A DNA stretch of 32,902 nt from the NCBI GenBank assembly GCA_030603565.1, contig JAUVXM010000027.1, positions 1 through 32,902 on the forward strand, in the 5' to 3' direction. Below are positions 1-32,902 of the stretch, piece by piece (positions within the stretch are counted from its first letter, which is position 1; every line of letters begins with the position of its first letter). The translations under genes were made by a program, and so were the position numbers. The DNA is from Candidatus Aminicenantota bacterium (lineage in GTDB: Bacteria > Acidobacteriota > Aminicenantia > Aminicenantales > Aminicenantaceae). The notes under the pieces were generated by a model. It was not told where the DNA came from, searched no databases, and worked only from the letters and a program-made list of their open reading frames with translations.

Positions 1-216
1 AGGCACAGGGTATGAAGCTGTGGTCCTTCACCGCGAATACCCTGTAACGAAGCAGATGCGGTGAGATCGGCTCGCTCGGAGAGTAAAAAAATGGCGATTA
101 AAATTAAAAATAAAAACAAGAAAAAAGTTTCAATAATCATTTTTAATAAAAGCTTGCATGTCATTGAAAAGAAAAAAATAATAAAAAAGTCGCCATTTTT
201 TTATGAATAGGTCAGG
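1..216 (+). mobile_element. Repeat copy A: structured MITE-like element (left end cut by window edge)
   Basis: This is one of five long copies of a dispersed element. Its right end is TATGAATAGGTCAGG at 202-216; the left about 39 bp lie outside the window. An inner 9-bp stem is perfect: ACAGGGTAT (5-13) with ATACCCTGT (37-45). The apical stem is GTGGT/ACCGC around 20-34. A second perfect 13-bp stem joins AAAAAAATGGCGA (85-97) with TCGCCATTTTTTT (190-202) around an AT-rich spacer. No transposase is encoded. The copy ends 26 nt before the start codon of the DUF1177 gene, in the same orientation. The target duplication cannot be tested because the left flank is missing. Confidence 0.85.
154..182 (+). 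promoter_or_regulatory. Candidate outward promoter inside repeat copy A
   Basis: TTGCAT (154-159) and AATAAT (177-182) are separated by 17 nt, which fits a sigma70-type promoter pointing at the DUF1177 gene. The same TTGCAT-17-AATAAT arrangement is kept in copy F and, with 16 nt, in copy E. The predicted transcript start would lie only about 13 nt before the element's own ATG at 203. This is an inference from motif match in AT-rich DNA, where chance matches are common. Confidence 0.35.
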
Positions 217-1270: not shown

Positions 1271-2665
1271 TTAGCGTGATTCCCTGTCTTTTAGATAAAA
1301 TTCTTGAGATGTGAAAAACTCTTTTGTTGCTTTTACTACTTTGGAGGATAGGCTTAGTACTCCTATTAGATTTGGGATTACTACAAAAAACAGAAGCAGG
1401 TCAAGAAAGAGCCACAGCATCTTAAGCCCGCCTATTGCCCCTATAAAACAAGCTGCTATATAAACGATACGTATTACTACGGAAAACTTACTCCCAAACA
1501 GAAATGCCGCCTGTTTTTCTCCATAAAATGCAATCACATAGATTGTGGAGATAACAAAAAGCAGAATAGAAAAACTGACAATAACTCCCCCGATTGATCC
1601 ATAAAAATCGGAAAAGGCACAAGCCGGCATAGCTGCAGCTTCAATCTCGGCATTCTTCCATATTCCGGTTGTCAGAAGAACCAGGGCTGTAATACTGCCG
1701 ATCACAACTGTATCAAAAAAGACGCTGACAACCCCCCAAAAACCCTGACGAGCAGGATGATCTGTGATTGCCGCAGCATGAGCGATAGGCGCACTTCCCA
1801 TGCCGGCTTCATTGGAATACAACCCGCGCGCCATACCCCAACGCAAAGCCATCAAAATCGAGCCCCCGGCTGCGCCCCCAGCTACTGCTTTCCCGGAAAA
1901 AGCATCTTTTACAACCAGGATAACAACTCCAGGGACAGCCCCAATATGGGCTATTATGATAATAATACAGCCCAATAAATAAAGCCCTGACATAAAAGGG
2001 ACAAATTTTTCCGAAACCTTACCCACCCGTTTTACTCCCCCAAAAATAATAAGTCCTAGGAAAAAAGCGATGACAGAGCCGGAAATAATGGGATCAATTC
2101 CAATGGAACTAGCGGAACCGGCTGCGGAATTAGCCTGGACCATGATACTAGAAAATATCTCAAACATGAAGAAAAAGGAAAAGCACACAGCCAGAAAAGG
2201 AGATTTAAGCCCTTTGCGGAGATAATACATAGGTCCGCCAACATACTCTCCTTTATCATTTTTTTCCCGGTAGAGCAGGCTTAAGACTACTTCAGAATAT
2301 TTGGTCGCCATTCCGACAAAGGCTGTGGCCAGCATCCAGAATACAGCCCCCGGGCCTCCAAAAAATATGGCGACCGATACCCCGATTATATTAGACGCTC
2401 CTACTGTAGATCCCAGCTCGGCTGTTACCGCCTGAAAAGGAGTGATAGTCCCTACACTTTTCTCTTCTTTTTTCCGCTTTTTAAAAAGAGATCCGAAAGT
2501 CTGAGACCATATATAACCGAATTTACGGAACTGAAGAAACCTGAGCCTTATTGTTAAATAGAGTCCTCCCCCTATCAGGATAATCAGCAGGGGCGGCCCC
2601 CACAGCACCCCGGTTACTGCATTGATCACTCTTTCTAAGAATTCCAAATAGCCTGAACTATTCAT
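1271..2665 (-). CDS. Sodium:alanine/glycine symporter, AGCS family
   Basis: This inner-membrane symporter couples Na+ or H+ entry to uptake of small neutral amino acids. Family signatures are clear: WGPPLLIILIGGGLYLTIRL near the N-terminus, STVGASNIIGVSVAIFFGGPGAVFWM, GMATKYSEV, GGPMYYLRKGL and GLYSNEAGMGSAPIAHA. About ten hydrophobic segments are visible. I start it at the ATG at 2665, giving 464 residues, but that ATG belongs to repeat B, and an in-frame ATG at 2707 deeper in the repeat is also possible. The host gene probably began at TTG 2647 (M)EFLERVINAV, the usual N-terminus for this family, with its ribosome-binding site now stranded on the far side of the repeat (2915-2920). It lies downstream of the M14 carboxypeptidase gene, which suggests peptide breakdown followed by amino-acid uptake. 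Confidence 0.9.
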   Translation of the reverse strand: MNSSGYLEFLERVINAVTGVLWGPPLLIILIGGGLYLTIRLRFLQFRKFGYIWSQTFGSLFKKRKKEEKSVGTITPFQAVTAELGSTVGASNIIGVSVAIFFGGPGAVFWMLATAFVGMATKYSEVVLSLLYREKNDKGEYVGGPMYYLRKGLKSPFLAVCFSFFFMFEIFSSIMVQANSAAGSASSIGIDPIISGSVIAFFLGLIIFGGVKRVGKVSEKFVPFMSGLYLLGCIIIIIAHIGAVPGVVILVVKDAFSGKAVAGGAAGGSILMALRWGMARGLYSNEAGMGSAPIAHAAAITDHPARQGFWGVVSVFFDTVVIGSITALVLLTTGIWKNAEIEAAAMPACAFSDFYGSIGGVIVSFSILLFVISTIYVIAFYGEKQAAFLFGSKFSVVIRIVYIAACFIGAIGGLKMLWLFLDLLLFFVVIPNLIGVLSLSSKVVKATKEFFTSQEFYLKDRESR

Positions 2666-2906
2666 AAAAAACGTCGATATGTATGATAGATTTTGCCAGA
2701 TCAACATTTTACACTGATTCCTTTAGTAATTTAATTAACCGCTTCGTTTTCGAAAAGAAATTTATATTTTTAATCAACATTTCTTACCTTTCAGGCGAGC
2801 CGATCTTACCGCATCTGCTTCGTTACAATGGATTTGCGGTGAAATACCACAGCTGCATCCATTGTGCCTTGCATCTACGGCAACCTCGACTCGTGAAGAA
2901 TTCAGG
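2652..2906 (-). mobile_element. Repeat copy B: 255-bp structured MITE-like element with 4-bp target duplication
   Basis: The full-length element is flanked by a perfect target duplication ATAG (2648-2651 and 2907-2910). On the minus strand it runs from CCTGAATTCTTCAC to TATGAATAGTTCAGG. Its inner 9-bp stem is perfect but differs in sequence from copy A: ACAATGGAT with ATCCATTGT (plus-strand positions 2857-2865 and 2825-2833). The outer stem is GAGTCGA/TCGGCTC. The right-end stem, AAATGTTGAT with ATCGACGTTT, keeps pairing only through two G-U wobbles, which favours structure in RNA read from the minus strand. It sits between the M14 gene and the AGCS gene and separates the AGCS coding frame from its original ribosome-binding site. 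Confidence 0.9.
2797..2892 (-). ncRNA. Candidate structured RNA domain of repeat copy B
   Basis: Read on the minus strand, a closing stem (GAGTCGA 2892-2886 with UCGGCUC 2803-2797) encloses a short GCC/GGC hairpin and a long hairpin. The long hairpin is built from ACAAUGGAU/AUCCAUUGU and an apical GUGGU-AUUUC-ACCGC. The same architecture is found in copies C and E with different bases in the stems. I do not recognise it as a known RNA family. Transcription is inferred, not shown. Confidence 0.45.
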
Positions 2907-7166: not shown

Positions 7167-7199
7167 TATTATGACTCCTTTATAGTCTGAAGCTGAAAA

Positions 7200-7232
7200 G
7201 GGACAGTCCCTTTAAGAGAGAGCATATGTCCC
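7200..7232. repeat. Palindromic hairpin of the GGGACAG family
   Basis: GGGACA (7200-7205) pairs with TGTCCC (7227-7232), followed on the plus strand by seven T. The arm also contains the self-complementary GGGACAGTCCC. The segment GGGACAGTCCCTTTAAGAGAG recurs with one change at 14968, so it belongs to a dispersed repeat family. It lies between the esterase and M14 genes (both minus) and could act as an intercistronic hairpin or partial terminator. Confidence 0.6.
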
Positions 7233-9503: not shown

Positions 9504-9647
9504 AACAAGGGATTAATTCTTCATCAGGACATCCTCCATAAATTTATTACTTTTCATTTAGACATGATCTTTTCAGTATTTTTTATTAAATAATAATTGG
9601 AAAGCCATTTTTTCCAAAAGATCAGTAAAAAGAATCAGGTTAGCTTA
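9504..9647. other. Intergenic stretch between MaoC gene and repeat C
   Basis: AT-rich, non-coding on both strands as far as I can see. It holds one short inverted repeat, TTGGAAA (9597-9603) with TTTCCAA (9611-9617), without a clean T-tract. Nothing else is recognisable. Confidence 0.4.
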
Positions 9648-9900
9648 CCTGGATTATTCACGAGTCGAGGTTGCTGCAGATACGAGGCGCAGGGGATGAA
9701 GCTGTGGTATTTCACCGCGAATCCGCTGCAACAAAGTAGATGTAGTAAGATCGGCTCGCCTGAAAGGTAAAAAATGTCGATTATAAATATAGATTACATC
9801 AAAAACGAAATTATTAATTGACTACCGGCAGCAAACGATGTAAAATGTTGATTTAAAAAGAACTACAAAACATATCGACATTTTTTATGAATAGTTCAGG
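9648..9900 (+). mobile_element. Repeat copy C: 253-bp structured MITE-like element
   Basis: The element runs from CCTGGATTATTCAC (9648) to TATGAATAGTTCAGG (9900). Stems are an outer GAGTCGA (9662-9668) with TCGGCTC (9751-9757), an inner GCAGGGGAT (9689-9697) with ATCCGCTGC (9721-9729, one mismatch), and a right-end 13-bp perfect stem AAAAAATGTCGAT (9769-9781) with ATCGACATTTTTT (9874-9886). Compared with copies A and E, the right-end stem changes GGC/GCC to GTC/GAC on both sides. Flanks share TTA (9645-9647, 9901-9903), so a 4-bp duplication is only partly preserved. The copy ends 6 nt before the TonB receptor ATG. Confidence 0.88.
9662..9757 (+). ncRNA. Candidate structured RNA domain of repeat copy C
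   Basis: A three-way-junction-like fold is predicted by eye: a closing 7-bp stem, a short GCU/GGC hairpin with an AGAUACGA-type loop, a long hairpin with the apical GUGGU-AUUUC-ACCGC, and a conserved joining strand AACAAAGUAGAUGUAG. Stem bases differ from copies B and E while pairing is kept except for one mismatch. Transcription is inferred only. Confidence 0.45.
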
Positions 9901-9906
9901 TTAATT

Positions 9907-12132
9907 ATGAAAAAGATATTTGCTTTATTAGCCGCCTTTTTCCTGTTCACAACCATCTCCTTTGCCCAAAATAAATTAACTATCAATGGTAAAGTCTCAA
10001 ACGAAAAAGGAGACCCGCTTTCCGGAGTAAAAGTTGAAGTATTTGAGACTCAGATAAAAACCACTACCGGTTCTAATGGCAGTTTTTCTATCACAGGCCT
10101 TAATCCCGGAAAATACCGCATTCTCTTTACTCACCCTGATTATATGCCAGGAGTTCTGGAAATAACCATTAGGGAAGGTAAAAAAAATCATATCGAAATT
10201 GATCTATCCCGGCAAAACTCCCGTCTGCTAAATCTAAAAAATGAGATCACGGTCACAGCCGAGGCAGACTCATTTCTTGACGTAAGCCTTCCTTCCCACA
10301 GGACTATTATCACTGACAATACTTTATCTAAATTAGCCACATCCAATATTGCTGAGACCGTAGCAAAGACTCCGGGAGTGACTATAGTCGGAAAAGGCGG
10401 TTATTCCATGGTCCCTGCCATCAGGGGCCTTGCTGAACACCGCATTTTGATATTAGTGGATGGGGTCAGAATAAGATCAGAGAGACGGGTGGGAGCAAGT
10501 GCTTCTTTTGTTAATGTTAATAATATAGCTCGCCTGGAAGTAAACCGCGGCCCTTATTCCGTCTTCTACGGCTCAGGCGCTATTGGCGGGATTATCAATA
10601 TTTTGACTAAATCTCCTTCTTCCCAAGCTCCTGTAAGAGGAAATTTCCAATTCGGATACAATACGGTAAGAGATGAAAAAGCAGCTTCAGTGAATTTAAG
10701 CGGATCAAAAGGAAAATTCGGTTTTATGCTCTCAGCTAATGGGAAAAAAGCCTCCGATTATTCCTCCCCCTCATCAACCATCAAACAGTCCCGCTATGCC
10801 GATTATGACATAATGTTTAAGATCAACCGGGAGGAGAAAAATTCCCGGTTTTATTTTAATTTTTTTACTTATCAGGGAATTGATATCGGCAAGCCCAGCC
10901 CCACATCAGAATTTAAACCACGCTGGTATCCCAAAGAAAAAAACACCCTCCTCACCCTGGGTTGTCAGATAAAAAATGTATTATTTCTGGATAACATCAA
11001 TGCCGGCTTCTATTTTTTTCCCTCCCTACTGGAAACTAAAAAGGAAAACCTGCGGGAGACTTATTCTGTAGAAAAACGCAACCTGGCCAAGATCGAAGCC
11101 TCAAATTTTGGATTTAAGCTCCGCGGGGGAAAATCTCTGGGAGAACTGCATACCTTTAATTTCGGGATAGATTTTTTCGGCCGCGCTGGAATAAATGACA
11201 AAAATACGGAATGGCAGTTTGATGAAACCGGCAATATTACAGAAACAACAGAAGAATCATCACTCCTCAATTCCCGGAGAAATAATATCGGGATCTATAT
11301 AGACGATAAATTTCAAATAAGCTCACATTCAATCCTCAATTTCGGAATCAGAGGAGATTATATCAATACAAGTAACCAGACAGTGGAAGGAAAGCGGATG
11401 TCAAGAGACGACAGGTCTATTTCAGGTTATATAGGCTCTGTATTTCAATTGACCCCTCATTTTTCCTTTTTGGCAAATATTGGCAGCTCTTTTCGTTTTC
11501 CTGCGATAAGCGAATTGTTTTATTCCGGTTTGACTGGGAGAGGAACCATATCCTCAAATACCGACCTTTCTCCGGAAAGAAGTGTCAACCTGGATTTTGG
11601 CATACGCTACCTTCATGACAGGCTTTATGCCTCCATTTATGCTTTCAACAATACAATAAGTGACATTATCCAAAAATACAAAACTCCTGAAACGGATGCT
11701 TATTTTTATAAGAATCTTACCCAAGGACGAATTTATGGTTTTGAAGGTGAATTTTATTTCTGGTTGTTTAAAGAACTTGACTTACAGCTAAGCTTCCATC
11801 ACTTACTCGGCAAAAATACCGCAGACAGCACACCTCTCAATTATATACCCCAAACCCGCTTAACTCTCGGAGCTAAATATGACCGGAATAATTTTTGGTT
11901 CGAACCCAAAATAGTTTTTTCCTCTGCCAAAAAAAATCCAGGGCCTTTAGAGATAGAAATTGACGGATATACTTTGGTAGACACAGTCATGGGTTACAAA
12001 GTAAATAAGAACATCCAACTGATAGGAGCTGTAAGTAATATTTTAAACACCACCTATCGAGCTTCCGCCGATGAACAAGGAGTCGATGCCCCCGGTAGAA
12101 GCTTTATCTTCAAAGCCTCTTATTCTTTTTAA
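9907..12132 (+). CDS. TonB-dependent outer-membrane receptor
   Basis: This 741-residue outer-membrane transporter has a signal peptide (1-20, ending SFA-Q), a carboxypeptidase-regulatory-like beta domain (about 24-95, GKVSNEKGDPLSGVKVEV), a possible TonB-box region around NEITVTAEA (112-120), a plug domain (about 130-230, including RGLAEHRILILVDGVRI and RGPYSVFYGSGAIGGIINI), and a barrel ending in a C-terminal Phe (KASYSF). It would import a substrate using TonB energy; the ligand cannot be told from sequence. The regulatory-like domain is usual in receptors of Bacteroidetes and Acidobacteria-related groups. The start is the ATG at 9907, 6 nt behind repeat C, whose terminal CAGG is the only ribosome-binding-like sequence nearby. 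Confidence 0.93.
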   Translation: MKKIFALLAAFFLFTTISFAQNKLTINGKVSNEKGDPLSGVKVEVFETQIKTTTGSNGSFSITGLNPGKYRILFTHPDYMPGVLEITIREGKKNHIEIDLSRQNSRLLNLKNEITVTAEADSFLDVSLPSHRTIITDNTLSKLATSNIAETVAKTPGVTIVGKGGYSMVPAIRGLAEHRILILVDGVRIRSERRVGASASFVNVNNIARLEVNRGPYSVFYGSGAIGGIINILTKSPSSQAPVRGNFQFGYNTVRDEKAASVNLSGSKGKFGFMLSANGKKASDYSSPSSTIKQSRYADYDIMFKINREEKNSRFYFNFFTYQGIDIGKPSPTSEFKPRWYPKEKNTLLTLGCQIKNVLFLDNINAGFYFFPSLLETKKENLRETYSVEKRNLAKIEASNFGFKLRGGKSLGELHTFNFGIDFFGRAGINDKNTEWQFDETGNITETTEESSLLNSRRNNIGIYIDDKFQISSHSILNFGIRGDYINTSNQTVEGKRMSRDDRSISGYIGSVFQLTPHFSFLANIGSSFRFPAISELFYSGLTGRGTISSNTDLSPERSVNLDFGIRYLHDRLYASIYAFNNTISDIIQKYKTPETDAYFYKNLTQGRIYGFEGEFYFWLFKELDLQLSFHHLLGKNTADSTPLNYIPQTRLTLGAKYDRNNFWFEPKIVFSSAKKNPGPLEIEIDGYTLVDTVMGYKVNKNIQLIGAVSNILNTTYRASADEQGVDAPGRSFIFKASYSF

Positions 12133-14956: not shown

Positions 14957-14966
14957 TACTAATAAA

Positions 14967-15001
14967 GGGGACAGTCTCTTTAAGAGAGAGGGGCTGTCCC
15001 C
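14967..15001. terminator. Bidirectional hairpin between convergent genes (GGGACAG family)
   Basis: GGGGACAG (14967-14974) pairs perfectly with CTGTCCCC (14994-15001), with an inner TCTCTT/GAGAGA stem. It lies in the 60-bp gap between the stops of the BNR-repeat gene and the S9 peptidase gene, the expected place for a shared terminator. There is no long T-run. It shares GGGACAGTCYCTTTAAGAGA with the hairpin at 7200, so it is also a repeat-family member. Confidence 0.65.
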
Positions 15002-21757: not shown

Positions 21758-21815
21758 TTCTTTCTCCTCATATGAGAAGCACTTTGGGATTGCTTCATCA
21801 TTTCTTTCTTTCTAT

Positions 21816-21881
21816 CCTGACCTATTCATAAAAAAATGTTAATGTTCTTATTATTAATTTATCTTCTGTGAATAATCCAGG
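21816..21881 (-). mobile_element. Mini-repeat D: 66-bp deletion form of the element, with perfect 4-bp target duplication
   Basis: Read on the minus strand it starts CCTGGATTATTCAC and ends TATGAATAGGTCAGG, the same termini as the 255-bp copies, with the RNA domain and the left arm of the right-end stem missing. The flanks are CTAT at 21812-21815 and 21882-21885. It touches the stop codon of the AbgB-like gene: the TAG stop (21884-21882) is inside the target duplication. Its right end lies 58 nt before the gamma-glutamyltransferase start. This is the shortest copy with both ends. Confidence 0.88.
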
Positions 21882-27078: not shown

Positions 27079-27096
27079 TTTTCCTTTTTGTTTTAA

Positions 27097-27145
27097 CCCG
27101 AACTATTCATAAAAAATGTCGATATGTATAATATAAACTAAAATG
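27097..27145 (-). repeat. Repeat fragment G: right end of the element only
   Basis: On the minus strand the segment ends ATATCGACATTTTTTATGAA then TAGTTCGGG, which matches the right end of copies B and C with one change in the terminal motif (CGGG for CAGG). The match fades beyond about 27145, and no left end or RNA domain is recognisable. It points into the aminotransferase gene, 18 nt from its ATG. A degenerate left end near 27162-27170 is possible but unconvincing. Confidence 0.7.
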
Positions 27146-31697: not shown

Positions 31698-31718
31698 TGT
31701 AATCCTCTCATTTCCTAA

Positions 31719-31973
31719 CCTGGATTATTCACGAGTCGAGGTTGCCGCAGATGCGAGGCATAGGGTGCGGCAGCTGTGGTACTTCACCGCAAGTGCCCTG
31801 TAACGAAGCAGATGTAGTGAGATCGGTTCGCCTGGAAGGTAAATAAAATGGCGATTAAAATTAAAAACAAAAACGAGAAAAGAGATAAAATTACCATTTT
31901 CGAAAGAATCTTGCATATTACTGAAAATAAATAATAATAAAAACATCGCCATTTTTTTTATGAATAGTTCAGG
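31719..31973 (+). mobile_element. Repeat copy E: 255-bp structured MITE-like element with perfect 4-bp target duplication
   Basis: The element spans CCTGGATTATTCAC (31719) to TATGAATAGTTCAGG (31973), flanked by CTAA at 31715-31718 and 31974-31977. Stems: outer GAGTCGA (31733-31739) with TCGGTTC (31823-31829); inner ATAGGGTGC (31760-31768) with GTGCCCTGT (31793-31801), pairing throughout with three G-U wobbles; right-end AAAATGGCGAT (31845-31855) with ATCGCCATTTT (31945-31955), perfect. A TTGCAT...AATAAT promoter-like pair is present with 16-nt spacing. It is the only copy whose right end does not face a recognisable gene start; its left end is 21 nt from the GH2 start. Confidence 0.92.
31733..31829 (+). 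ncRNA. Candidate structured RNA domain of repeat copy E
   Basis: The fold is the same as in copies B and C: closing stem GAGUCGA/UCGGUUC, hairpin UGCC/GGCA with loop GCAGAUGCGA, long hairpin with apical GUGGU-ACUUC-ACCGC. The joining strand AACGAAGCAGAUGUAG repeats the loop motif GCAGAUG. All stem differences from other copies are wobble or paired changes. Transcription is not shown. Confidence 0.45.
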
Positions 31974-31977
31974 CTAA

Positions 31978-32746: not shown

Positions 32747-32902
32747 CCTGACCTATTCATAAAAAAAATGGCGATGTTTTTATTATTATTTTCTTTTCAA
32801 TGATATGCAAGATTTTTTCAAGAATGATTATTGTAACTTTTTTCTTGTTTTTATTTTTAATTTTAATCGCCATTTTTTTACTCTCCGAGCGAGCCGATCT
32901 CA
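32747..32902 (-). mobile_element. Repeat copy F: structured MITE-like element (left part cut by window edge)
   Basis: Read on the minus strand it ends TATGAATAGGTCAGG at 32747 and is close to identical with copy A; about 67 nt next to the window edge match exactly, the remainder differs at roughly ten positions. The right-end stem is AAAAAATGGCGAT with ATCGCCATTTTTT. The flank after the right end is CTAA on the minus strand, the same tetranucleotide as the target duplication of copy E. Most of the RNA domain is beyond the window. The right end points into the thioredoxin-like gene. Confidence 0.87.
32782..32810 (-). promoter_or_regulatory. Candidate outward promoter inside repeat copy F
   Basis: On the minus strand TTGCAT (32810-32805) and AATAAT (32787-32782) are 17 nt apart, as in copy A. 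The predicted start of transcription would be close to the element's own ATG at 32760 and would read into the thioredoxin-like gene. Motif match only. Confidence 0.35.

Follow-up and report, generated by a model that had tools for sequence, protein, structure and literature searches.

The window, by which we mean the whole stretch of DNA analysed, is the 32,902-nt contig JAUVXM010000027.1 of a Candidatus Aminicenantota bacterium (GenBank assembly GCA_030603565.1), in which we delimited several copies of a repeat. Element C, a whole MITE of 253 bp, occupies positions 9648-9900 of the forward strand, with ends defined by comparison of 104-114 copies and with CTTA (9644-9647) and TTAA (9901-9904) as its flanks. 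Its terminal inverted repeats, CCTGGATTATTCA on the left (9648-9660) and TGAATAGTTCAGG on the right (9888-9900), both given for the forward strand, are the 5' and 3' sides of helix P1, and the AGG of the right repeat lies about 7 nt upstream of an ATG at 9907. Perfect duplications border element B (255 bp, 2652-2906, reverse strand; CTAT at 2907-2910 and 2648-2651), which the sister genome G001 lacks at that site, and element E (31719-31973, forward strand; CTAA at 31715-31718 and 31974-31977). Element A (1-216, forward strand) has lost its 5' end at the contig start and element F (32747-32902, reverse strand) is truncated by the contig end. Two solitary right ends were also found on the reverse strand, one without a core (27092-27133) and one degenerate (21813-21871). 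Using R1, a covariance model of the core with 115 positions and 35 pairs, we obtained matches in the window at 1-85 (forward, cut by the contig start), 2785-2899 (reverse), 9655-9769 (forward), 31726-31841 (forward) and, as a cut end, 32879-32902 (reverse).

Most copies are 253 bp long, and the element holds no internal ORF. A search of the 3.14-Mb genome for the apical core yielded 204 matches versus 7 for the reversed control pattern, this being a pattern count in which a few copies may be missed or added. The element fragments assemblies, as several contigs of this genome, the window included, end within copies. A second short repeat, AAAAGGGACAGTCCCTTTAAGAGAGAG...TGTCCC, is present in the window as two copies that are 84% alike (7196-7232 and 14964-15000).

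To characterise insertion, we compared the flanks of 113 copies and found identical 4-bp flanks in 36, versus 9.4 expected and at most 18 in 200 shuffles; flank lengths of 3 and 5, at the same position, gave no excess of identity. Targets follow the consensus YTAR, most commonly TTAA, and G001 provides an empty site for element B in which CTAT is seen to have been duplicated. Duplications in the piggyBac superfamily are reported to be TTAA and variants such as CTAA and TTAG (PMC10813416), so that these targets are in keeping with an assignment to IS1380/piggyBac. In G022, which belongs to a related genus of the same family, we identified an IS1380-family transposase gene (NCBIfam NF033539; Pfam PF13701) whose halves lie on two contigs and are bounded by MITE-type ends, CCTGGATAATTCATAAAAAA on the left (L285) and TTTATGAATAGTTCAAG on the right (L280), with no core. 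Its size, terminal repeats, target duplication and copy number mark the repeat as an abundant MITE belonging to the IS1380/piggyBac type. We found no intact autonomous element with MITE ends; the source genome is an incomplete MAG, and its sole IS1380-like gene has ends that differ from those of the MITE.

Other origins were considered and set aside. A RAYT/REP origin is ruled out by the 4-bp duplications together with the IS1380 ends, and IS5, which the YTAR target had led us to guess, gave way to IS1380 since PF01609 loci were never bounded by paired MITE ends. ORFs lying between distant inverted ends resembled host genes such as CinA when their sequences were judged by eye. At L280 (G022:C304), the IS1380 left end runs straight into the transposase gene's C-terminal half, making this an internally deleted copy and perhaps a nascent MITE. 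The site of element C (window 9641-9900) holds in the sister genome G002 (G002:C41) an unrelated insert of about 251 nt.

The structured core of element C (9655-9769, forward strand, matched by R1 with 132.4 bits) consists of P2 and a mini-hairpin, and all positions that follow are on the same strand. P2 is closed by P2a, in which the 5' arm CGAGTCGA (9661-9668) pairs with TCGGCTCG (9751-9758), and this contains the closing stem quoted in the preliminary description, GAGTCGA (9662-9668) with TCGGCTC (9751-9757). The 5' arms of P2b (9673-9683) form two helices, one of 6 bp (9673-9678/9741-9746) and one of 3 bp (9681-9683/9736-9738), which flank a conserved GA/GA mismatch pair. An internal loop follows with unpaired AGGC (9685-9688) opposite AAC (9730-9732), and then P2c, the inner 9-bp stem (9689-9697/9721-9729), which has one G.G mismatch in C and which, in A, B, C and E, matches the sequences originally quoted. 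The apical hairpin (9701-9718) reads GC-U-GTGG-TATT-TCAC-C-GC in a corrected pairing. Next come the mini-hairpin CCTGAAAGG (9759-9767), with about 10 compensatory changes in each of two of its three pairs, and P3 (9768-9887), whose arms TAAAAAATGTCGAT (9768-9781) and ATCGACATTTTTTA (9874-9887) enclose an AT-rich variable loop and in which 12.93 of 16 pairs were formed versus 11.09 after shuffling of partners. The sense fold is thus predicted to be a four-way junction of P1 (the transposon ends), the P2 core, the mini-hairpin and P3, with P1 left out as evidence for RNA because transposon ends are complementary anyway. The four-way layout recurs with unrelated stem sequences in L236 (z -13.1), a locus from a different Acidobacteriota family, and in one copy from Desulfobacterota (z -6.8).

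Some copies depart from this arrangement. At L233, L240 and L245 (G008) a separate hairpin, GGGGTCAGAC...GCTGACCCC, replaces the apex of the core and the 3' part of the inner stem while the outer stems are kept, and in isolate BS750m-G29 (L063, L080, L084, L092 and L093) the insert CGTCGTTGCGAGGAGCGAAGCGACGTGGCAATC, which resembles a CGTC-type REP palindrome, splits the 3' half of the core.

Most of the 36 relatives from the same genus or family carry the element, the order's other families mostly lack it, and elsewhere in the phylum we found only weak relatives, L236 among them. Further cores were detected in Desulfobacterales and Deltaproteobacteria MAGs; when 117 genomes were sampled from the class to which a Desulfobacteraceae MAG belongs, 51 had matches, the richest of them at least 31. 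Desulfobacteria copies have other ends, for example AACCCGGATATTTCACGA or ACCCTAATGTTGCAAAA, and an unchanged layout; they are often about 255-270 bp long, and short forms of 108-165 bp consist of P1 and P2 only. In the short forms L181, L214, L227 and L278, which lack P3, the transposon ends run straight into P2. The core copies L275 and L277, from a Desulfobacteria genome, directly adjoin a tRNA gene. The Rfam search suggested by the preliminary description returned no family above the gathering threshold for the element, tRNAs being the only hits of Rfam 15 in the window and 20 related loci. Plasmids and viral contigs gave no matches at the sensitivity used, and a literature search of open-licence papers retrieved no description of the element.

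In order to assess covariation, we aligned 29 diverse copies with MAFFT, blind to structure (alignment A2), and saw at least one double change in 24 of the 35 pairs, so that both arms change with pairing kept, as had been proposed. Double changes affected 4 of 8 pairs in P2a (96.6% of cells paired), 7 of 9 in P2b and 9 of 9 in P2c. Standard pairs made up 95.9% of pair cells, a value reached in 0 of 500 shuffles, versus 85.7% with partners shuffled; when the 3' partner was slid by 1-3 columns, 31-40% of cells paired. RNAalifold independently gave the same fold with three more pairs. Our main test was the counting of events on a tree (FastTree/Fitch reconstruction, 174 copies), yielding a mean of 5.1 branches with compensatory double changes per structure pair versus 0.155 for the 6181 other column pairs; the 12 column pairs richest in such changes all belong to the structure. 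Under a stricter, self-written R-scape-style null, four pairs, all in P2c, reached E<0.05 over all 6216 column pairs, a low number that is probably due to the copies forming deep clades. When the E-values were rescaled by hand so as to cover just the 35 pairs of the structure, 16 passed, a count that is partly circular because part of the structure was derived from the same copies; P2a and P2c had been put forward before covariation testing.

Covariation extends beyond the stems first quoted, to a 3-bp helix TRC/GYA beside the GA/GA mismatch, to the mini-hairpin CCYGAARGG and to the distal P3. One pairing had to be given up, as the apical GTGGT/ACCGC pairing of the preliminary description showed zero compensatory changes and several breaks. 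The apex supported by the alignment is GC, a U-C mismatch and GTGN-loop-NCAC, that is, GC-U-GTGG(loop)YCAC-C-GC, with GTGG/CCAC, GTAG/CTAC, GTAT/ATAC, GTGC/GCAC and GTAC/GTAC as variants of its stem. Across 265 copies from two lineages, AGGC, AAC, G44, A46 and A66 are unpaired and at least 93% conserved. The covariation is confirmed and is stronger than first described, and the pattern of substitutions in the wider alignment of up to 265 copies from two phyla supports the claim of selection for a fold.

We then compared the two kinds of imperfect pair that distinguish the strands, leaving out pairs where most copies have G-U. In the remainder, G-U cells outnumbered A-C cells by 269 to 77 in Aminicenantes and by 181 to 38 in Desulfobacteria (about 3.5-5 to 1), which points to one strand as the folded one. 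Changes from A-U pairs led to G-U in 49 cases and to A-C in 8 in Aminicenantes, so that the excess is not a mere C-to-T mutation bias; the Desulfobacteria counts, 10 versus 9, are small. For the full element C, the sense RNA folds at -84.3 kcal/mol (z -8.0) and the antisense at -56.7 (z -2.7), a clear difference that likewise points to a single folded strand. In their substitutions, copies from two phyla thus show a strand-specific constraint on the fold. In an account free of selection on structure, the two arms of an imperfect palindrome would correct each other through template switching or gene conversion and so maintain the pairing, and the element is indeed a long quasi-palindrome within a mobile repeat, where such correction could yield double changes on one branch. 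Mismatches would vanish under this process, yet the AGGC/AAC, G44-A46/A66 and GA/GA loops persist in both phyla, G-U predominates at three pairs, and A-C is several times rarer than G-U, making this account highly improbable.

The same constraint could act on single-stranded DNA, if the top strand extruded a hairpin during replication or transposition that a transposase or a host protein recognised. Several observations agree with this: the element is conserved across phyla despite differing neighbour genes, its stems end exactly at the transposon ends, its preference for sense orientation relative to genes does not hold everywhere, and single-stranded DNA could likewise favour G.T over A.C. 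The mini-hairpin moreover frequently has a GNA loop, and GNA loops are very stable in DNA. On the other side, the 4-bp duplications and the IS1380 partner point to double-strand cut-and-paste rather than to a single-strand Y1 enzyme, the IS1380 copies have no core, and no orientation bias relative to replication was present in two complete genomes (14/21 and 12/17 copies at the best possible origin). A role as single-stranded DNA remains the serious one among the rivals, albeit an unlikely one, and we favour RNA as the folded molecule.

To place the element relative to genes, we retrieved copies lying between co-directional genes, counting 55 sense versus 19 antisense in Aminicenantes (p=3e-5) and 13 versus 25 in Desulfobacteria (p=0.07), with orientations from simple ORF calling and with p-values that are optimistic as the copies are related. 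Copies A, B and C of the window precede genes in sense, the genes downstream of copies being unrelated (DUF1177, a Na:Ala symporter, a TonB receptor). Element B, present in G000 and G002, sits between two co-directional genes whose gap measures about 12 nt. It parts the ribosome-binding site AAGGAG (about 2915-2920), which overlaps the stop codon of the upstream gene, from the TTG (2645-2647) at which the Na:Ala symporter gene is likely to start; in G001 this ribosome-binding site and start are about 8 nt apart. Given this position, element B very probably belongs to an operon transcript. The ATG at 2707, the listed ORF start, falls within element B. Insertion between a ribosome-binding site and a start is clear at B and rare elsewhere, so we do not propose it as a general mechanism.

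The sense orientation of A, B and C before genes and the Aminicenantes preference for sense insertions would suit a cis-regulatory RNA, a riboswitch-like leader of particular genes. We nevertheless consider such a leader very unlikely, given the unrelated downstream genes, some 200 copies in one genome and a presence that differs between sister species; the lack of sense bias in Desulfobacteria also means that a role as a 5' leader is not general. Least probable of all is that transposition has spread a gene for a small or guide-like RNA acting in trans; the complex conserved fold and invariant unpaired residues could speak for it, but no effector gene lies beside the copies examined and Rfam offers no match.

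The reading that we prefer, with a probability of roughly 0.6, is that of a high-copy IS1380/piggyBac MITE that carries a conserved domain of about 115 nt and that, as a four-way RNA fold, would act in cis. An IS1380-like transposase would move the DNA of the element in trans, and the folded molecule would be RNA made mostly by read-through from neighbour genes. This RNA would act on the host mRNA by folding the insertion away as a closed domain, and the AGGC/AAC loop may offer a site for protein binding or processing. Transcripts of NEMIS are reported targets of RNase III (PMC2229807), and their processing may serve as a model for the AGGC/AAC loop as a processing mark. Insertions could thereby be tolerable or useful, so that copies persist. 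Against this reading stand the IS1380 partner, known only as two broken halves in a related genus, and again the absence of sense bias in Desulfobacteria. More tentatively, the element could represent a new class of mobile structured RNA, a two-phylum domain hitchhiking in IS1380-type MITEs with changing ends, whose fold would bridge the host mRNA, for example at B, with near-neutral or regulatory insertions and the fold itself selected.

Bacterial MITEs are usually viewed as decayed transposons in which the ends alone matter. Here, Acidobacteriota and Desulfobacterota both keep an inner fold with invariant loops and many compensatory changes while their transposon ends differ by lineage, so that why a non-coding transposon needs a structured RNA becomes a testable question. 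The near-constancy of the fold across two phyla suggests a widespread, unnamed structured RNA travelling inside transposons, and an abundant unannotated element is added to the genomes of common anaerobes.

Among bacterial MITEs with RNA hairpins, Correia/NEMIS, ERIC and YPAL (PMC2229807, PMC10969869) resemble the element in being short, non-coding, gene-adjacent and high in copy number, with terminal inverted repeats and transcripts expected to fold. They are mostly long stem-loops formed by their ends and restricted to single genera or related groups, whereas here two phyla share an internal domain of several helices with invariant loops; Correia/NEMIS also differ by their TA target and Neisseria-type ends, compared with a 4-bp YTAR duplication and IS1380-type ends here. 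With IS1380/piggyBac transposons the element shares ends starting with CCY, 4-bp TTAA-like duplications and the ends of the G022 IS1380 gene; unlike them, it has no internal transposase gene, and its structured core is missing from the IS. The GTAG and CGTC REP elements (PMC3733652) are likewise very abundant intergenic palindromes, present in many phyla and probably transcribed, but they measure 20-40 bp and are tagged at one end, versus 253 bp with terminal inverted repeats and a duplication. The CIR elements of Caulobacter and Brucella (PMC2229807) similarly unite two arms in one repeat, and differ by an exposed GANTC site and in sequence and lineages. A MITE with IS1380-type ends is thus of a known kind, and what is unusual is its inner, RNA-like multi-helix domain, absent from Rfam and found in two phyla.
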